This document shows positions 33,751 through 43,308 of a stretch of DNA of 64,000 bases, piece by piece. The translations under genes and the position numbers were made by a program. The stretch comes from Calothrix sp. PCC 7103 (GTDB lineage Bacteria > Cyanobacteriota > Cyanobacteriia > Cyanobacteriales > Nostocaceae). Each line of letters starts with the position of its first letter. Within the stretch, counting starts at the first letter, position 1. The notes under the pieces were generated by a model. The model was not told where the DNA came from, made no database searches, and saw nothing but the letters and a program-made list of their open reading frames with translations. The DNA is taken from the NCBI RefSeq assembly GCF_000331305.1, contig NZ_KB217478.1:5553595-5617594 (forward strand), given 5' to 3'.

Positions 33751-34629
33751 TTACAATAGTGTTTCCATCCAGGTTAGGCATTTTTGCATCTGAGAAAGCA
33801 TTGTTTCTGGGTCTGCATGATACCTACGACCGTGACCAGGTAAAACCCATTCAAATGTATACTCAGCGACACGACGCATTGATTTAATTTGTTCTGAGTA
33901 CGAATACCAGCAGTAGTCACGAAAAACTATGAGTTGATGATTTGTTTCTGACCATGCTAGGTGGTCGCCAGTAAATAGAAATTTGTTCTTGTATAGTAAG
34001 ACTGTATGCCCTTTACTATGACCAGGTACAGGGATAATTAGTAAATCCTGCGGCGCCAATTCTATTGGTTCGGTACCTGTAAGCTGAATTTCCACATCCC
34101 TGGTATCGGATGTAATATCATCACTATGAAGAATTCGCTCACACTTGAAATGTTCGGCAAACTTTTTATGGTCAGCAACATCATCACGGTGTGTTAAATA
34201 CATGTAGCGAATTCCTCCAAGTTGCTCAAGTCGCTTGACTAACGGTGGAGTAAACCGAGGTGAGTCAACTAATATATTTCCCTCTGGTAAATAAATCAAG
34301 TAACTCGCGGCGCCGTAGGAATTTTCCGAATGATACCCACAATGGTAAACATTATCTTCTACAAGTATAGGAAAACTCTGTTGTGCCTCTTTAATATCTC
34401 GCGGTTTCTCTACAGTTCCTATCGAACCCGTAGGACAAGCTAACAAAGCCTGAAGCGCCATTCTTCTTTCAACTTCATCTTCGGGCTGATGATAAACAGC
34501 CGACTGTTCACCATCTTCCACAAATACACTTGGCGCCATCCACCTACAAGTATCACAATCAATGCAGCTAGTATCAACATAAAAATCACCACTGACATTT
34601 TGCGGGCGCCTTCCTTCCAAATGTGCCAT
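33751..34629 (-). CDS. Ferredoxin-MBL fold metallo-hydrolase fusion
   Basis: A 292-residue fusion. Residues about 15-80 resemble a small 3Fe-4S/4Fe-4S ferredoxin: DTSCIDCDTCRWMAPSVF and later LACPTGSIG supply the cluster cysteines. Residues about 95-285 form a metallo-beta-lactamase fold: THRDDVADHKKF (HxxxDH-type metal motif), then PGHSKGHTVLLY, LFTGDHLAW and LPGHGRRYH with the further ligands. The first metal motif is slightly unusual (HRDDVADH). The product is likely a cytoplasmic hydrolase or oxidoreductase with an attached electron-transfer domain. It is divergent from the cysteine desulfurase gene, which supplies sulfur for Fe-S clusters. Confidence 0.88.
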   Translation of the reverse strand: MAHLEGRRPQNVSGDFYVDTSCIDCDTCRWMAPSVFVEDGEQSAVYHQPEDEVERRMALQALLACPTGSIGTVEKPRDIKEAQQSFPILVEDNVYHCGYHSENSYGAASYLIYLPEGNILVDSPRFTPPLVKRLEQLGGIRYMYLTHRDDVADHKKFAEHFKCERILHSDDITSDTRDVEIQLTGTEPIELAPQDLLIIPVPGHSKGHTVLLYKNKFLFTGDHLAWSETNHQLIVFRDYCWYSYSEQIKSMRRVAEYTFEWVLPGHGRRYHADPETMLSQMQKCLTWMETLL

Positions 34630-36958: not shown

Positions 36959-36961
36959 CTT

Positions 36962-37040
36962 GCAACGGATGGGAACAGATGTAACGGATGATTTATTAAT
37001 TAAAAATAACCCATCCGTTACATCCGTTGTATCCGTTGCC
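36962..37040. repeat. ACGGATG hairpin repeat, family D, copy 1
   Basis: Three iterated units of about 9-10 bases (CAACGGATG, GAACAGATG, TAACGGATG) are followed after an A/T-rich loop by three inverted units (CATCCGTTA, CATCCGTTG, TATCCGTTG). The same architecture recurs at 41549-41628. It is within 5 bases of the DUF1995 stop codon. Confidence 0.8.
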
Positions 37041-37468
37041 AGTAATTGTAAATAAATATTAATTATTCTCTGATTAAGTACTCATAGATATCTGCCTATG
37101 TGTTACATAGATTTAATATAATGTAATAATTACATTGTAAAAATAAATATTTGCCCGTACTACTAATATTTGCTACCGTTTTCTGACATTAAACGGGGAA
37201 CTAAATACCATCAAAATGAGAATTGTCTTTTATAAAACAATAATTACTTACGTGCCAATGTATTGATTTTTATATATAATTAAGTGATAGCACTTAGATA
37301 TAACGCTTAGTAAGCTTACTTAACAGTGTTATTACTTATTTTGATATCTGAAAAATGAACTATCCTTTTATGTATTACAGAGACATCTCGTTATAAAAAG
37401 GTTTTAACGAGCCAAATATTTCACAAGGTGCAGCTTTGTATAAATTTATATACAGTAGCTATAAACAA
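37041..37468. other. Upstream region of the signalling gene group
   Basis: About 430 A/T-rich bases precede the DUF4388 gene. Two small inverted repeats are present, TAAGTG/CACTTA at about 37281-37296 and the perfect palindrome AGTAAGCTTACT at 37309-37320. They may be regulator sites of the following gene group; nothing else is recognised. Confidence 0.4.
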
Positions 37469-38314
37469 ATGAGTCTATCTAGTTCTTTCACAGATTTTTC
37501 TTTAGCTGAACTATTTCAGTTGATTGACCAAGGAAAAAAGTCAGGTTGTTTGACGGTTTGTACTTTACCTAACTTGAAAGTTATTGGCTCAAAATCGCAG
37601 CATTACTATATCTGGTTTCGACAAGGAAATGTAGTTGCTGCGACAAGTAAATTAAATGGACTTGGGTTAGTCGAAAAGATTGTACAGCGAGGTTGGGTAA
37701 ACGAACGTACCTTAAAAAGACTTCGTTTGCAAGCAGCAACAGATACACCTTTAGGTTTATATCTTAAAACTTTAGAAATTTTAAGCGCAGAGCAGTTAAA
37801 CTTATTGTTTGCAAGTCAGTTACAGCAAGTCAGACAGTTATTTGAAATCCAAAAGGGTGTTTTTAAGCTTGATAGTAAAGCAATTTTACCTACGAGCGAA
37901 ATGACTGGGATAAGTTTACGCGCTACAGAAGTGGCTTTAATGGCTTTACGAGTAATTAAAAATTGGGCAGCTTTGGCTGATGCTCTACCCAACCCAACTT
38001 CGGCAATCGAAGGAATTACACCCGCTAAAACCCAACTTCATCTGCATCCCCTTGAATGGCAGTTATGGGAATTTGCTGACGGAAATGTTAGTTTAAACGC
38101 GCTTGCATCTCAACTTAACCAACCTATTGCTACTATCCAGCAAGTTGCTTTCCGATTGATGGTTGCTGGTTTGGTTGAAGAAATTCCGTTATCATCGCAT
38201 TCACAGAGCTTTGAGGGTTATATGTCCACTTACAGTCCTCAAAAGTCTCAACCGTTAAAGGTAAGTACTTCGTTTTTACAAAACCTAGTTGGTTTTCTAA
38301 AGAGTAAAGCTTAA
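37469..38314 (+). CDS. DUF4388 (PATAN-type) domain protein
   Basis: A 281-residue soluble protein. The N-terminal part (about residues 3-115; SSFTDFSLAELFQLIDQGKK, then GNVVAATSKLNGLGLVEKIV) is the DUF4388/PATAN fold found with signalling proteins in cyanobacteria and myxobacteria. Residues about 190-245 (ALASQLNQPIATIQQVAFRL then MVAGLVEEIP) look like a winged-helix module. The ATG at 37469 is preferred to a TTG at 37436. It is 21 bases from a Ras-like GTPase gene, and both belong to a group with Roadblock, globin and V4R genes. By analogy it should act as an adaptor for the GTPase. Confidence 0.75.
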   Translation: MSLSSSFTDFSLAELFQLIDQGKKSGCLTVCTLPNLKVIGSKSQHYYIWFRQGNVVAATSKLNGLGLVEKIVQRGWVNERTLKRLRLQAATDTPLGLYLKTLEILSAEQLNLLFASQLQQVRQLFEIQKGVFKLDSKAILPTSEMTGISLRATEVALMALRVIKNWAALADALPNPTSAIEGITPAKTQLHLHPLEWQLWEFADGNVSLNALASQLNQPIATIQQVAFRLMVAGLVEEIPLSSHSQSFEGYMSTYSPQKSQPLKVSTSFLQNLVGFLKSKA

Positions 38315-38335
38315 CGACTCTATAAATTCACTGTT

Positions 38336-38872
38336 ATGGAAATTCTACGGATTGTAGTCACAGGAAGTGTTGGTGCGGGAAAAACAAGTTTCATTCGCAC
38401 TATTAGCGAAATTGATGTTGTGGATACCGATAAGCGTGCAACTGATGAAATGGCAGAAATTAAAGCTAACACTACTGTCGCTTTAGACTTCGGGCGCCTA
38501 ACAATCAGTCCAAAACAATCGCTTCACTTATACGGTACACCCGGACAAGCTCGGTTCGATTTTATGTGGGATATTTTAATTCAGAAAGCCCATGCTTATA
38601 TTTTATTAATTGATGCTCATCGTCCCGAACATTTTCGCCACAACCGTAAAATTCTTCAGTTTTTTAAAAAAAGAGTTGATATACCTTATTTAATTGGCAT
38701 AACACATTCTGATTGCGAAGGCGCCTGGGAAGCGTCGGATATTGCCTTGAGTCTGGGAATGCTAGACGAACAACCAGCCATTGTAACTGTTAACGCAACA
38801 GAAATAACATCAGTCCGAGAAAGTTTAATTAATGTTGTTGAGCTATTGACAAATTGCTATCAACATCATTAG
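38336..38872 (+). CDS. Small Ras-like GTPase
   Basis: A 178-residue P-loop GTPase. The G1 loop is TGSVGAGKTSF (residues 9-19), G3 is LYGTPGQARFDFMW near 62-75 and G4 is GITHSDCEGAW near 121-131 (THSD in place of NKxD). This is the family of bacterial/archaeal Ras-like proteins that, with Roadblock/LC7 proteins, form MglA/MglB-like switches. No lipid anchor or membrane helix. It directly follows the DUF4388 gene and precedes a Roadblock gene. It is the likely molecular switch of the group; the pairing with the two Roadblock proteins is an inference from gene order. Confidence 0.88.
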   Translation: MEILRIVVTGSVGAGKTSFIRTISEIDVVDTDKRATDEMAEIKANTTVALDFGRLTISPKQSLHLYGTPGQARFDFMWDILIQKAHAYILLIDAHRPEHFRHNRKILQFFKKRVDIPYLIGITHSDCEGAWEASDIALSLGMLDEQPAIVTVNATEITSVRESLINVVELLTNCYQHH

Positions 38873-39046
38873 TACAAAAAATCATTGAAAACAAATTGTA
38901 ATATATAGCACATTCATTATTATTTCTTAAAGTAGTTTTCACCTTAATATTGTTGAGTTTTGCTCACTATATCGAGATAATACTGCTAATGTATATGTGG
39001 TGATAAAAACATCAGAAAGTCACAAAAAATCAGTACATAAACCGTT

Positions 39047-39613
39047 ATGGCTTTAGGCAGAATCCTGAAGCTACTCATGGGTGGGTTTCAGCAGTCTCCA
39101 TCTGAAATTTTGCCGGAGCCGCAGAAAACTGAGTCTGACATCAAATCAGACGAAGTAGAAGCAACCGTCATCCCAACTCCAGCCATTGAGTCACAATCGT
39201 TTGATTTAACAGCTATTGAATTACCAACTTCTCTAGGACAAGACATGATTAATATTTCGATGTTGCAACAAGAGTTGCAAAACTTTGTCACAGGTGCCTC
39301 AGATGTTCAAGGTGCTGCACTAGTAAGTCCAGATGGTCTTGCCTTAGCATCAGTACTTCCTGGTGGAATGGATGAAGAACGGACAGCCGCCATGTCAGCT
39401 TCAATGCTGTCACTTGGTGAGAGAATTGGGCGTGAGCTAGCACGCGGAAACGTTGAACGTATTGTAGTTGAAGGCGAAAAAGGTTACGGTGTTTTAATAG
39501 GATGCGGTAGTGAGGCTGTATTACTAGTGCTAGCAGGCGCCGCAGTCAAACAAGGAATTTTATTTTTGGAACTCAAACGGGTGGTGGCAAGAATAGCCCC
39601 TTTGTTGGCATAA
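39047..39613 (+). CDS. Roadblock/LC7 domain protein with N-terminal extension
   Basis: A 188-residue protein. Residues about 67-188 are a Roadblock/LC7 domain (FVTGASDVQGAALVSPDGLA and VERIVVEGEKGYGVLIGCGS), the fold of MglB-like GTPase regulators and dynein light chains. The first 66 residues are a proline/glutamate-rich, probably disordered extension. The domain is nearly the same as the entire 122-residue protein of the downstream Roadblock gene, so the two are recent duplicates. It sits between the GTPase gene and the globin gene. Confidence 0.9.
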   Translation: MALGRILKLLMGGFQQSPSEILPEPQKTESDIKSDEVEATVIPTPAIESQSFDLTAIELPTSLGQDMINISMLQQELQNFVTGASDVQGAALVSPDGLALASVLPGGMDEERTAAMSASMLSLGERIGRELARGNVERIVVEGEKGYGVLIGCGSEAVLLVLAGAAVKQGILFLELKRVVARIAPLLA

Positions 39614-39763
39614 CTAACAATCCTTACTCAGATACTTGGATTACTGAGTTTAAATGATGCTGACATCACATAAAAATATTAAAGGTTTATCAGAGGGAAG
39701 CATCGGGTAATTTAAACCACACAAACAATTTATTTTGATTAGCAGTCAGGAGTTTATTACATC

Positions 39764-40318
39764 ATGGCCTTAGACCCACATGTCTTTATGTCCACCCTTG
39801 AAAAGCGCGTTGGCTTAACTTCGGCTGACAAAGCTTTATTAAAATCTGAGGCAGAGTGGGGTGCAAAATTAGCTCCAGAGATGGCCGACCAATTTTATGC
39901 TTATCTTGGACGTGACCCAGAAATGAACAGCATACTTAATGATGGCAACGGACGAGTTCATCGTTTACATGAAACCTTCATTAACTGGTTCCAAGAAATG
40001 TTTACAGGTATGGACGGATGGGGTAATGCATACGCAGACCGTCGTTGGAGAATTGGTTTAGTTCACGTCCGTCTTGGTATTGGACCGCAGCATGTTGTTC
40101 CTGCAATGGCAACAGTTGTATACGAAGTTGGCAAACATCTCAAAGCTGATGGTAAAACTGAAGACCTCAAAGACGCACTAGGACGAATTTGTATGATTGA
40201 TTTAGCTTTTATCGAACAAGCATATGTAGAAGTTTCTTCCTCCGCAGTCCTTCAAGAAACTGGTTGGAGCGAAGGTTTGTTCAGACGCTTAATTGCTACT
40301 GGCGCCAAATCAATGTAA
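39764..40318 (+). CDS. Stand-alone sensor globin (protoglobin-like)
   Basis: A 184-residue haem globin of the sensor/protoglobin type. The motif WRIGLVHVRLGIGPQHVVPA near residues 97-116 includes the proximal His (HVRLG), as in HemAT and related globin sensors; FINWFQEMFTGMDGWGNAYA precedes it. No output domain is attached, so it likely signals by protein contact. It lies between two Roadblock genes and has its own gaps of about 150 and 370 bases. It probably binds O2, NO or CO. Its partner in the group is a matter of inference. Confidence 0.85.
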   Translation: MALDPHVFMSTLEKRVGLTSADKALLKSEAEWGAKLAPEMADQFYAYLGRDPEMNSILNDGNGRVHRLHETFINWFQEMFTGMDGWGNAYADRRWRIGLVHVRLGIGPQHVVPAMATVVYEVGKHLKADGKTEDLKDALGRICMIDLAFIEQAYVEVSSSAVLQETGWSEGLFRRLIATGAKSM

Positions 40319-40329
40319 TATTTACTTTC

Positions 40330-40347
40330 ATCCCCCTTATGGGGGAT
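40330..40347. terminator. Hairpin after the globin gene
   Basis: ATCCCCC (40330-40336) and GGGGGAT (40341-40347) form a perfect 7-base stem around TTAT, 12 bases after the globin stop codon. There is no T run, so termination is only possible. The rest of the 371-base gap to the Roadblock gene at 40690 shows nothing I can identify. Confidence 0.4.
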
Positions 40348-40689
40348 ATACACAATAATTCTGTTGAAAGATGTATCACAAGGTGGTAGTCAATTATTGA
40401 AATATATATAATTATTTATCTGTGATATAGGTAAAATCAAACAAGGGTAAAGATTTTAAAAGATAGATATTATATACACACTATATTTGTGTAAGCAGGA
40501 TGTATTTGCCAATATAGTTGGACTGAAGCATACAGATTCGCCTTCTCAAGAATTATCGGATATTTATGCTGTATTCGCTTTGGCGCCGATAGCTCTAGTC
40601 AATGTTACCGACCGAATTTAAATCAAGACTGTGCTAACCAAATTATTAGAGCAATTGTAATAACAAATAAATCGTGTGGGAGGATAATT

Positions 40690-41058
40690 ATGATTAATAC
40701 TTCAATGCTACAAGATGAAATACAAAACTTTGTTACTGGTGCATCGGATGTTCAAGGTGCAGCATTAGTAAGTCCAGATGGTTTAGCACTAGCATCAGTA
40801 CTACCAGGTTCAATGGATGAAGAACGCACAGCAGCAATGTCAGCGTCAATGCTTTCGCTTGGTGAACGCATTGGACGCGAACTCGCACGTGGTAGCATTG
40901 AACGTATCGTAGTGGAAGGTGAAAAAGGTTACGGTGTATTAGTTGGTTGCGGTAGTGAGGCCGTACTACTCGTGCTTGCTAGTGCAGAAGTTAAGCAAGG
41001 TATTTTATTTTTAGAAATCAAGCGAATTATTAGTAGACTGGTGCCGTTAATTGGATAA
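40690..41058 (+). CDS. Roadblock/LC7 domain protein
   Basis: A 122-residue single Roadblock/LC7 domain. It matches the domain of the protein at 39047 almost residue for residue (FVTGASDVQGAALVSPDGLA in both; SIERIVVEGEKGYGVLVGCG versus NVERIVVEGEKGYGVLIGCG), lacking only its N-terminal extension. A GGAGG lies about 8 bases before the ATG. The V4R gene starts 6 bases after its stop, so the two are co-transcribed. It may form hetero-oligomers with its longer copy to regulate the small GTPase. Confidence 0.92.
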   Translation: MINTSMLQDEIQNFVTGASDVQGAALVSPDGLALASVLPGSMDEERTAAMSASMLSLGERIGRELARGSIERIVVEGEKGYGVLVGCGSEAVLLVLASAEVKQGILFLEIKRIISRLVPLIG

Positions 41059-41064
41059 AAAATT

Positions 41065-41544
41065 TTGATAGGAGTCCAAATAATGTTACGTCCTAATTTA
41101 GGTGATTTTAGCAGTATTGTTTGCTTTAAAGCTGCTATTGTGGGAATGGAAGATGCTTTAGGAGACAAAGCAACCGCAATTGCTTTAACAACAGCAGGTC
41201 GCAGTCGCGGTAGACAGCTTGCAACTGAACTTGGTTTAAGTCGTTCAATGATGTCCCTTGATGATATCGCTTACAAACTTGGTTATGCCTTGGGTAAAAC
41301 CGGTACATGTTTATGTAGCGTAGAAAAAATTCTTTGCGAAGATGATGTCATTAAAGTCTACACCAGCGAAACTTTATGTTCAGCAGGAGAACCCCAAGGT
41401 TCTGAACGTAAATGTACATATACTCTTGGGGCTGTTTGGGGCGCCTTAGAACAAACTCTCGGTAAGCGCTTTCAAGGTAAACACACCGAGTCAGTGCTAC
41501 GTGGTGGCACTCATGATGTATTTGAATTTACTGAATTCAAATAA
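41065..41544 (+). CDS. V4R-domain protein (4-vinyl reductase type)
   Basis: A 159-residue protein with a V4R (4-vinyl reductase-type) small-molecule-binding domain. The N-terminal part (GDFSSIVCFKAAIVGMEDAL) and the C-terminal cysteine-rich core (TGTCLCSVEKILCEDDVIKV; CSAGEPQGSERKCTYTLGAV) are typical; the domain is known in bacteriochlorophyll and signalling proteins that bind tetrapyrroles, hydrocarbons or metals. Its four or five cysteines may bind a metal. The frame could begin at 41065 or at the later ATG at 41083. It is 6 bases from the second Roadblock gene, closing the signalling gene group. Confidence 0.8.
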   Translation: MIGVQIMLRPNLGDFSSIVCFKAAIVGMEDALGDKATAIALTTAGRSRGRQLATELGLSRSMMSLDDIAYKLGYALGKTGTCLCSVEKILCEDDVIKVYTSETLCSAGEPQGSERKCTYTLGAVWGALEQTLGKRFQGKHTESVLRGGTHDVFEFTEFK

Positions 41545-41548
41545 CCTT

Positions 41549-41628
41549 GGCAACGGATGATGAACGGATGAAACGGATGATTTGTTATTTAAAATCACTT
41601 ATCCGTTACATCCGTTATATCCGTTGCC
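41549..41628. repeat. ACGGATG hairpin repeat, family D, copy 2
   Basis: GGCAACGGATG, AACGGATG, AAACGGATG, then after an A/T-rich loop ATCCGTTACATCCGTTATAT and CCGTTGCC. It shares the three-unit inverted design of the copy at 36962-37040. It lies between convergent genes, directly after the V4R gene and ending at the stop codon of the next. Confidence 0.8.
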
Positions 41629-42032
41629 TAAAGCACAACAGGCGCCGTTTCCCATATTTCACCATACTCATCACGCAAAGCTTGCCAAGCTTCCACTTGT
41701 CCAGGTTCATATTCTCCTGGTTTGCCCCATTGTAAAAATAAGCTCAATGCTGACTCTTGCTTCTCATCTAAAAATCTAATTGCGTAGGTTGTAAAGTTAC
41801 CACGCTTCGCTTCACCTGTTTCAAACTTTACTTGCTTAATTAAGTCCATATTCAAATGAAACTCAAAACCTTCGGTGTGCATATTCGCGTATTTGCCCTT
41901 CGCCAACTCCGCATAGAATATTTTCTCGACTTTTCCGCGCGCTTCTAATACCGCTGCACTACTTGTAACAATTAAACGCAAAGTACCTAAGCTGTCGCAA
42001 GCTTCCAAAAACTCTTTTAACGGTTTAGCCAT
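41628..42032 (-). CDS. Small ChuX/HutX-like haem-related protein
   Basis: A 134-residue soluble protein. The sequence LKEFLEACDSLGTLRLIVTS, KYANMHTEGFEFHLNMDLIK and AIRFLDEKQESALSLFLQWG corresponds to a small cyanobacterial family that I recall being named ChuX/HutX-like haem-binding; this is recall and not verified. HEARO-free and single-domain, about a third the size of HemS. It is convergent with the V4R gene across the family D repeat. A haem-handling role would fit the nearby globin gene. Start at the ATG at 42032. Confidence 0.65.
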   Translation of the reverse strand: MAKPLKEFLEACDSLGTLRLIVTSSAAVLEARGKVEKIFYAELAKGKYANMHTEGFEFHLNMDLIKQVKFETGEAKRGNFTTYAIRFLDEKQESALSLFLQWGKPGEYEPGQVEAWQALRDEYGEIWETAPVVL

Positions 42033-42172: not shown

Positions 42173-43308
42173 ATGGCAGATCAACTTTTAACTGATGCGA
42201 ACCAAAAGCTGCACGACCGTTACATCGTAATTAGAAAAATCGCAGAAAACGGAGGCCGACGCACAATAATGTTGGGGATGTATATTTAGTTGATTTTGGT
42301 TCTGTACAAACTAGCATTAAAGCACGTGGTACCAGGACTGTAGTTGGTACTTATGGCTACATGCCACCTGAACAGTTTGGTGGAAGAGCTTTTCCTGGGT
42401 CTGACTTATATAGTTTGGGAATGACATTAATTTACTTAGCTACCAAAAAACACCCCTCTGAATTACTCGGTGATGATTTAAATATTAAATTTGAGCAAAT
42501 ACCAAATATCAGTGCTGAGTTGAAAGCTTGGTTGAATATTATGATACAACCTAGTATTAACAGTCGTTTTGACTCAACAACCGCAGCATTACATGCTCTA
42601 GATAATTTATCTAATATACTATCAAATGATGAATATAATTTGTACTACAGAGATATTAATTTCTCAAAATTGAAAAAACCATCACATAGTAAAATTAAAA
42701 TCAAGAAAACCATAAATAAGTTAGAAATTATATTCCCAACAAAGACAACAAAGCAAATTATTGGTAATGTAGTCGGTGCAATAATACCAAGTGCAATTAT
42801 ATTATATGTAGGATATTATGTATTATATGACCTCGCTAAATACATAATTGAATTTTTGCTGCAAATATTTATAATTAATTACATAGTCATATTTTTATAC
42901 ACTTCGCTGGTTTTATTCTTAAGTTCATGCCTACTAATTCACTTATTCGGCAGAACAAAATTAGTAATTGACGAAAAGCTTTTAATCATAATAACAGAGG
43001 TATTTGGCAGTCAAGCATTAGCAGGTGCCCCGCGAAAAATTATTGCTAGAGAGCATATCTGGAAGCTAATATGCAGCGCAAAAGAATATAAATTAGTTAA
43101 CTTAAAAAATGATACTGAAAAAACAGTCAAACCTCCAAGTTTAATTATATGGGAAGGTACATTTAGCAATCATGATTTGAGTCAATATTTAAATCAACCT
43201 TTAACCTTCAATAAAAATAATCAATGTAGAAACGCTACTTTTCGTATTTTTCATACGCAGCAACAATTCGCTGTACTAAAGAATGGCGTACAACATCTTT
43301 TTGCGTAA
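42173..43308 (+). pseudogene. Serine/threonine kinase with internal deletion and frameshift
   Basis: From the ATG at 42173 the frame reads MADQLLTDANQKLHDRYIVI then RKIAENGGRR and soon stops at TAG 42287-42289. The next frame resumes at NNVGDVYLVDFGSVQTS and continues TRTVVGTYGYMPPEQFGGR through a C-lobe and a membrane helix to TAA at 43308. The Gly loop, the VAIK lysine and the HRD loop between them are lost, so a deletion of about 100 codons plus frameshift removed the active site. The last 24 codons lie antisense to phoH, showing that the native stop is gone as well. A dead remnant. Confidence 0.85.

Follow-up and report, generated by a model that had tools for sequence, protein, structure and literature searches.

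A cyanobacterial Roadblock–GTPase gene group with exchangeable globin, V4R-fold, carotenoid-protein and hemerythrin partners: a candidate small-GTPase signalling module

What do an MglA-type small GTPase, two Roadblock proteins, a PATAN protein, a globin and a V4R-fold protein do side by side in a cyanobacterium? The six genes lie on the plus strand at positions 37469-41544 of a 64,000-nucleotide stretch from Calothrix sp. PCC 7103 (NCBI RefSeq assembly GCF_000331305.1, contig NZ_KB217478.1, positions 5,553,595 to 5,617,594 of the forward strand), hereafter the window. From gene content and conserved motifs we propose, with moderate confidence, that they form a small-GTPase signalling module in which the Roadblocks couple exchangeable cofactor- or ligand-binding proteins to the MglA-type switch, with the PATAN protein as the likely output. 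A first-pass annotation, made from the DNA letters, had named all of these genes on this strand and over this span; sequence and Pfam searches bear this out, the V4R-type gene by predicted fold, but there are six genes and not the five it had counted. The members of the group, with the decayed gene that lies among them, are as follows.

37469..38314, plus strand: PATAN/DUF4388 protein, 281 residues, proposed effector (Pfam DUF4388, 2.6e-24)
38336..38872, plus strand: MglA-type small GTPase, 178 residues (Pfam; G1 and G3 motifs in a 31-row alignment)
39047..39613, plus strand: Roadblock 1, 188 residues, with an N-terminal extension (Pfam Robl_LC7, 1e-17)
39764..40318, plus strand: single-domain globin of the protoglobin/globin-coupled-sensor type, 184 residues (Pfam Protoglobin, 2.7e-21)
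40514..40657, plus strand: remnant of a second MglA-type GTPase (tblastn against intact copies)
40690..41058, plus strand: Roadblock 2, 122 residues, 87% identical to the Roadblock 1 core (Pfam Robl_LC7, 2.8e-17)
41083..41544, plus strand: V4R-fold protein, 153 residues, start ATG at 41083, proposed small-molecule-binding partner (AlphaFold2 and Foldseek)

The genes are separated by 21 bp (PATAN to GTPase), 174 bp (GTPase to Roadblock 1), 150 bp (Roadblock 1 to globin), 371 bp (globin to Roadblock 2, a gap that contains the GTPase remnant) and 24 bp (Roadblock 2 to V4R type). Pfam supports five of the six, and the sixth, the V4R-type gene, is recognized at the level of its predicted fold.

Recurrence of the group and exchange of its partners

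Co-occurrence was surveyed in one draw of 386 cyanobacterial genomes, the window's own included. Strong matches to the globin (E ≤ 1e-50, searched with Tlr1989) were found in 32 genomes and strong matches to the Roadblock subfamily (E ≤ 1e-30) in 36, with both present in 31 (Fisher p = 2e-39, a value that ignores relatedness). Outside these strong counts, present at E ≤ 0.001, are 4 of 36 globin genomes (G012, G225, G150, G179) and 15 of 51 Roadblock genomes. The two genes are also neighbors: by their printed coordinates, a Roadblock gene starts no more than 5 kb away at 32 of 39 globin loci, and such a pair exists at least once in 31 of the 32 genomes; the globin and adjacent Roadblock of G476 and the globin of G426 contain an internal stop and were counted nonetheless. 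Twenty of the 39 strong globin loci were retrieved for neighbor analysis. Across 148 genomes of the order, searched at E ≤ 0.001, the globin occurs in 17, the V4R type in 24 and the Roadblock in 33, with all 17 globin genomes among the 33. Judged from these distributions, the grouping of these genes is not chance. The first-pass annotation had assumed that they belong together, to be abandoned if co-occurrence in other genomes were lacking; no such lack was seen.

The make-up of the group was compared across 78 named loci, drawn from the best 80 of 255 Roadblock-alignment matches, a set that leans to the window's relatives; removal of L204, which has no Roadblock open reading frame (ORF) above 45% identity, left 77. 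This set overlaps the other locus sets used here (e.g., L149/L254, L176/L256, L161/L257, L203/L073) and the counts are not additive. Neighboring genes were identified by greedy longest-ORF calling and blastp (E ≤ 1e-3 in earlier sets, E ≤ 1e-5 in later sets), a procedure that missed the L262 Roadblock (G379:C45:7752-8111) and the L087 V4R-type gene. A globin, a V4R-type gene or both lie within 6 kb on the same strand at 66 of the 77 loci (both at 25, V4R type alone at 26, globin alone at 15); one further locus has a carotenoid protein and ten have none of these. The GTPase and PATAN genes are both present at 56 of the 77, contig ends included, and within the same distance and strand limits of 67 full-context Roadblock ORFs the GTPase accompanies 58 and PATAN 53.

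Two further protein families occur in this setting. Among 16 Roadblock loci of the order that were chosen for the absence of an adjacent globin, one (L139) has the V4R type, and five (L124-L128) have a gene for the N-terminal carotenoid-binding domain of the orange carotenoid protein, 300-2300 bp upstream of the Roadblock on the same strand (Pfam Carot_N at 1.7e-59 in L124, 3.6e-59 in L125 and 1.2e-60 in L127; blastp in L126 and L128). L214 is a sixth locus with a carotenoid-protein gene near the Roadblock. These genes, of the helical-carotenoid-protein type, are located at L124:5823-6350, L125:7769-8299, L126:7738-8268, L127:11832-12359, L128:11806-12333 and L214:7855-8637; a carotenoid-protein gene at L081:9294-9842 directly precedes a V4R-type gene, with no Roadblock of this subfamily nearby. 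One genome of 2,593,857 bp, in which the Tlr1989 sequence is found at 100% identity, has the order globin-Roadblock-GTPase-PATAN-hemerythrin, with about 72, 34, 24, and 13 bp from stop to called start between successive genes. Hemerythrin genes directly follow PATAN in four small-genome loci; none follows PATAN in L251, the second locus of a genome having one elsewhere.

L248:12044-12451: hemerythrin (Pfam, 2.1e-14)
L249:12194-12616: hemerythrin (Pfam, 2e-14)
L250:7386-7796: hemerythrin (Pfam, 2.5e-14)
L252:12069-12533: hemerythrin (Pfam, 9.2e-13)

Across the loci compared, the group is a Roadblock–GTPase core, usually with PATAN, of which the globin, the V4R type, the carotenoid protein and hemerythrin are exchangeable members; the gene set described in the first-pass annotation does recur, but not as a fixed set of six. 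The four exchangeable members come from families known for binding haem, small molecules, carotenoid and a di-iron site, respectively. Part of this arrangement is already published, since PATAN genes are occasionally found near MglA Groups 1 and 5 and near MglB (PMC4316618, citing Makarova 2006; statements cited by PMC identifier are taken from excerpts of those papers). Links of the globin, V4R type, carotenoid protein or hemerythrin to the Roadblock–GTPase core are undescribed among the open-access literature matches listed, and the open-access literature searched gave no paper that joins Roadblock, V4R and cyanobacteria, that joins helical carotenoid protein and Roadblock, or that names Tlr1989.

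The loci with two Roadblocks bear on how the partners may be connected to the core. Two Roadblock ORFs occur in 19 of the loci compared for tandem Roadblocks, from 17 genomes. At 12 of these (the window, L055, L056, L140-L144, L163, L169, L171, L264) one Roadblock lies by the globin and the other by the V4R type, and at three (L091, L092, L199) two V4R-type genes alternate with two Roadblocks. The other four fit less well: L069 and L177 have one globin per two Roadblocks, and L196 and L206 have three V4R-type ORFs per two. In the window's clade each Roadblock is nearest (94-100%) to the relatives' Roadblock beside the same partner, and the two Roadblocks of one genome are 87-88% alike (about 90% in L169/L171). 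Tandem Roadblocks would have arisen either by repeated duplication or by gene conversion, both of which are compatible with the Roadblock being the direct partner of the sensor. A receiver-Roadblock fusion ORF at L131:4410-5210 (Response_reg 3.4e-25, Robl_LC7 5.4e-17) points to a possible phosphorelay input.

Hemerythrin and single-domain globins are able to bind or to store O2, and the globin might accordingly serve in O2/NO detoxification or storage, its place in an operon with a polarity GTPase being incidental. Its lack of an output domain and the second globin genes that six genomes carry away from any Roadblock would suit such a role. However, a V4R-type or carotenoid protein replaces the globin beside the Roadblock, and most tandem loci have one Roadblock per partner. 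Together these patterns argue for a functional link between globin and Roadblock, and we consider the shared-operon explanation quite unlikely.

Motifs and folds of the core and input proteins

Pfam identifies the GTPase as a P-loop GTPase (best match ATP_bind_1, 1.2e-12; Roc, 2.1e-6; Ras, 4e-5). It contains a G1 motif GSVGAGKT, a G3 motif YGTPGQ and, in G2, NTTVA with a Thr pair; G10, G15, K16, T46, T47, G67, P69, and G70 are invariant and T68 and Q71 at least 90% conserved in the 31 rows. Both Roadblocks exceed the Robl_LC7 cut-off of 23 bits (64.1 bits for Roadblock 1, 62.6 for Roadblock 2) and have an Asp-Gly pair (D30 G31) that is invariant in 32 of 32 Roadblock rows. These features match MglA Groups 2-5, defined by a P-loop GxxxxGK[TS], G3 GTPGQ and a Thr in G2, and the Asp-Gly pair of Group 2-5 MglB (PMC4316618). 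As in the MglA family, a Roadblock gene stands beside the GTPase, here 174 bp downstream, and the arrangement recurs in other loci. The first-pass identification of an MglA-like GTPase and two Roadblock proteins is thereby supported. In G4, both the window protein and the alignment consensus read THxD, whereas [NT]KxD is typical of MglA Groups 1, 4, and 5, with Group 5 being the group that lists cyanobacteria (PMC4316618). In the strain's own genome (11.58 Mb), the GTPase alignment matches a single gene at E ≤ 0.001, that of the window, and the Roadblock profile finds two, both in this group.

The MglA-MglB systems of Myxococcus and Thermus (PMC4316618) thus share with the window a Ras-like GTPase encoded beside a Roadblock and the G2, G3, and Asp-Gly signatures. 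The window differs in its G4 motif and its two Roadblocks; the word globin is absent from that paper (word count 0), and V4R, carotenoid-protein and hemerythrin partners do not appear in its excerpts.

A second GTPase gene was once part of the group. The segment at 40514-40657, overlooked in the first-pass annotation, corresponds to the last 48 residues of an intact GTPase gene and is 81-85% identical to intact copies in L140-L143 (Dulcicalothrix desertica PCC 7102 and three Calothrix genomes) and 56% identical to that of L144 (tblastn). In L140-L144 the intact counterpart sits between globin and Roadblock, in the order PATAN-GTPase-Roadblock 1-globin-GTPase-Roadblock 2-V4R. By this comparison the relatives retain a second GTPase that has been lost here. 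Because this copy has decayed, both Roadblocks would share one GTPase in this strain.

Roadblock 1 begins with MALGRILKLLMGGF, which resembles an amphipathic helix and is followed by a variable linker. Similar LGxIxKLL-like starts are found in many relatives' Roadblocks, and of the 89 Roadblock ORFs in the named loci, 45 reach 160 residues or more by mechanically called starts. At the C-terminus of the PATAN protein is a conserved helix in which L273, F276, and L277 are invariant in 13 of 13 rows; in 24 rows L277 is invariant and L273 and F276 are at least 90% conserved. These two termini are candidate membrane or docking motifs.

The globin matches the Protoglobin profile with 76.7 bits (cut-off 25) and is a homolog of the solved structure Tlr1989 (8h17; E = 1.6e-93 with the family profile). 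Its His101 and Tyr45, invariant in 21 of 21 rows, align with a His and a Tyr of 2w31, 5ohe, and 1or4; we take them to be the proximal haem ligand and the distal tyrosine of oxygen-sensing globins, respectively. The globin-coupled sensors and protoglobins in question (HemAT, 1or4; AfGcHK, 5ohe; 2w31) share the profile and these residues with the window globin. They have a fused output, whereas the window globin has none by Pfam, as the first-pass annotation had noted, while keeping the candidate haem-ligand histidine; its output is proposed to occur in trans, via Roadblock and GTPase. Second globin copies away from any Roadblock of this subfamily were found in six of the 386 genomes, at G128:C188, G195:C1:4753025, G201:C4, G203:C1, G263:C139, and G330:C1:991414.

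The first-pass annotation had also allowed for a tetrapyrrole-like ligand. Globin-superfamily and V4R genes do occur together in other cyanobacterial loci, the slr0144-slr0152-type BBAG-V4R-FeS clusters (PMC10151467, PMC13174344), in which the globins are phycobiliprotein paralogs; BBAG-1 and BBAG-3 carry a CXRD motif and cluster with an iron-sulfur (Fe-S) protein and two V4R proteins (PMC10151467). The window globin sequence contains no C-x-R-D, and Pfam finds no gene for an Fe-S protein, haem oxygenase or ferredoxin-dependent (FDBR) or other bilin reductase within 37469-41544. The nearest Fe-S-type gene, encoding ferredoxin and metallo-beta-lactamase domains, lies at 33751-34629 on the opposite strand. 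The bilin reading, prompted by the clustering of globins and V4R proteins with bilin enzymes elsewhere, is not supported on these grounds. The word Roadblock does not occur in PMC10151467 (word count 0).

For the V4R-type protein Pfam gave no match at E ≤ 1, the V4R profile PF02830 matched nothing in the strain's own genome at E ≤ 0.1, and a Protein Data Bank (PDB) sequence search with its alignment gave three matches at E 0.5-0.8, which are not meaningful. Its AlphaFold2 model, built from a 28-row alignment, has a mean predicted local distance difference test (pLDDT) score of 89.8. In Foldseek this model matched the MopR sensor domain (7.1e-6), PoxR (1.1e-5), and mouse Bet3 (2.5e-5), and more weakly Thorarchaeota TRAPPC3 (1.2e-3) and a Nostoc H-NOX domain (1.3e-3); the Foldseek probability is 1.00, with query template-modelling (TM) scores of 0.70 to MopR and 0.64 to Bet3. 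The V4R label of the first-pass annotation is thus right at the level of predicted fold, despite the absence of a Pfam match. The protein shares this fold with the MopR/PoxR sensors and with TRAPP Bet3 and Thorarchaeota TRAPPC3, and differs from them in standing alone, in lacking a Pfam V4R match and in being encoded with a Roadblock and an MglA-type GTPase.

This combination recalls eukaryotic TRAPP, where Bet3-type (V4R) and longin/Roadblock-type subunits form an exchange-factor platform for Rab. The V4R-type protein might likewise be a structural partner of the Roadblock and not a ligand sensor, the two together forming an exchange-factor-like platform for the GTPase. V4R/Bet3, Roadblock and Ras-like GTPase fold classes are indeed united in one gene group; in three locus sets, 17 of 21, 6 of 6 and 42 of 43 V4R-type ORFs with full context have a same-strand Roadblock no more than 6 kb away, the third set being Roadblock-selected; and V4R has been proposed as the ancestor of Bet3 (PMC2253512). 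However, Roadblock and GTPase persist at many loci that lack the V4R type (the 15 globin-only and 10 inputless loci among the 77), and the V4R type occurs without a Roadblock in 4 of 24 genomes, which indicates that it is not an obligate scaffold. The ligand-binding MopR and PoxR domains match at least as well as Bet3, and MglA has been given a position separate from the Rup/eukaryotic branch (PMC4316618). Small GTPases, Roadblock and TRAPPC3 are present in Asgard archaea, where as a rule they are not encoded in operons (PMC10933270). We regard a TRAPP-like assembly as rather improbable.

Routes from input to output

In the proposed signalling module, the globin (with O2 or NO on its haem) and the V4R-type protein (with a hydrophobic or aromatic ligand) would serve as alternative inputs, and each would work via a Roadblock dimer of its own, encoded next to it. 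That dimer would bind the GTPase and shift its GTP/GDP state, in the manner of a GTPase-activating protein, a guanine nucleotide exchange factor or a platform, as MglB does on MglA. The GTP-bound GTPase would engage the PATAN protein, which would in turn act on its target, for which the type IV pilus motor PilB is the likeliest candidate; in this way oxygen or metabolic state would tune adhesion or movement on surfaces. Membrane attachment of the module may come from the N-terminus of Roadblock 1, with its resemblance to an amphipathic helix. Of all these steps, the output is the one we are least sure of. In Synechocystis, regulators of the PATAN type interact with PilB1 (PMC9090330, PMC12288463), and MglA controls pili in Myxococcus (PMC11580455), which makes surface motility our first guess.

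The PATAN protein itself matches DUF4388 with 86 bits (cut-off 25). Its start is taken as the ATG at 37469, the ORF list extending upstream to a TTG at 37436. It consists of the PATAN domain, a winged-helix-like C-terminal part, a low-confidence linker and the C-terminal helix (AlphaFold2 model, pLDDT 84.4, with residues 244-265 below 50). Like PixE and PixG of Synechocystis (PMC9090330, PMC12288463), it is a cyanobacterial PATAN-domain protein. PixE and PixG are response regulators that combine PATAN and receiver domains and take their input from photoreceptors, whereas the window protein has no receiver domain by Pfam and is encoded beside a GTPase. A fold search with the model gave no PDB match at E ≤ 0.001, and matches to KICSTOR-GATOR1 (E = 0.058, TM 0.27) were dismissed as noise. 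Residues 71-117 (37679-37819) have a sub-cut-off match to an MshE-type cyclic di-GMP domain (NCBIfam E = 0.033, 14 against 38 bits), and the MshE structure 5htl was weakly matched in the fold search (E = 0.89).

The main alternative to a motility output is a transcriptional one, in which the winged-helix-like part of PATAN, or a linked two-component system, acts on promoters, like the actinobacterial conservon. We read a winged-helix pattern of helices and strands in the model at PATAN residues 194-239, and there are weak helix-turn-helix matches (E 0.026-0.052), but these are far below the Pfam cut-offs. Ten loci have histidine-kinase and LuxR-type genes upstream of the Roadblock, and L131 has the receiver-Roadblock fusion. 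The conservon (CvnA-D; PMC4316618) shares with the window a Roadblock and an MglA-family GTPase in a conserved group; it has a histidine kinase, whereas Pfam finds none among the six window genes, and two-component genes were seen in those ten loci only. A transcriptional output appears unlikely to us, if a little less so than the TRAPP-like assembly. An example of the kinase and LuxR-type pairs is L263:4287-6157 (Pfam on L263 only). A ParA/MinD-type ATPase gene directly precedes PATAN-GTPase-Roadblock at L200:6599-7411 and L201:6467-7267 (Pfam on L200 only), and in L200 a HisKA protein follows these three genes.

Several observations weigh against the signalling module as proposed. Ten of the 77 named loci lack a known input protein within reach of the Roadblock, although four of the ten are at contig ends and one such contig-end locus, L192, has a globin on the opposite strand. 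Seven of the 39 globin loci have no nearby Roadblock, namely the six second copies and G344, and the four V4R-type genomes without a Roadblock match are G014, G019, G045, and G070. The G4 motif THxD in place of [NT]KxD means that guanine specificity of the GTPase is not assured. PATAN is absent near some globin loci (e.g., L055, L056, L058, L064, L065) and may consequently not be the sole effector, and its winged-helix-like part, as modelled, also allows DNA or another target. By word counts, a Thermosynechococcus vulcanus phototaxis study does not contain the word globin and a cyanobacterial pilus review contains none of globin, MglA, GTPase and Roadblock; no text examined ties the locus to motility.

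Among bacterial small GTPases the best studied is MglA, a polarity switch linked to a chemosensory system (PMC4316618). If the signalling module proposed here is correct, a haem globin, V4R-type or carotenoid protein would feed a Ras-like switch by a route with no kinase in the group, and V4R, Roadblock and Ras-like GTPase, the fold classes of TRAPP and Rab, would be united in one bacterial unit. A Thermosynechococcus-type genome offers a five-gene version, one member of which, Tlr1989, already has a solved structure. More speculatively, and with low confidence, there might be a general cyanobacterial pathway from sensors to Ras-like GTPases, in which haem globin, V4R ligand protein, helical carotenoid protein and hemerythrin, as stand-alone cofactor proteins, plug interchangeably into Roadblock platforms and the V4R-Roadblock-GTPase version parallels or distantly precedes the TRAPP-Rab exchange machinery. 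Such a pathway would give helical carotenoid proteins a signalling role.

Flanking hairpins and neighboring genes

A gene resembling the haem-utilisation genes ChuX/HutX (41628-42032, minus strand; Pfam 1.8e-10) adjoins the group and many related loci. It could suggest that the globin, the V4R-type protein and this gene handle haem or its breakdown products, with GTPase and Roadblocks as bystanders, and V4R proteins do cluster with bilin-binding globins elsewhere (PMC10151467). The gene is, however, on the opposite strand beyond a hairpin and is kept without globin and V4R in L179 and L181. The globin-Roadblock-GTPase linkage persists in L248-L252, among whose printed neighbors ChuX is absent, and the globin and group lack the bilin-associated motif and genes described above. 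We consider ChuX to be syntenic background and a role of the group in haem or tetrapyrrole metabolism to be highly improbable.

Two hairpins, each about 80 nt long, bracket the group.

36961..37042, no strand assigned: hairpin after the stop of the DUF1995 gene, upstream of the group (-40.2 kcal/mol, z = -9.1)
41547..41630, no strand assigned: hairpin just after the V4R-type stop (-42.8 kcal/mol, z = -10.0)

The downstream hairpin contains two direct-repeat blocks that are 88% identical to the upstream one. Motifs related to the upstream hairpin occur at the equivalent place in L140, L142, L143, and L144 and motifs related to the downstream hairpin in L140, L143, and L144, the last three having both flanks. 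One exact hairpin-derived pattern has three matches in the genome, two of which are these hairpins. They may be terminators or mobile repeats. A promoter/terminator scan gave counts close to those of shuffled sequences (15 vs 14.1; 4 vs 3.1), and we draw no operon boundary from it. Further downstream, at 42173-43308, the window contains a broken protein-kinase gene that is intact in L140 (495 residues; Pkinase, 6e-34): the frame from 42173 has a similar beginning, ends after 38 residues and is followed by a separate ORF of 315 residues.

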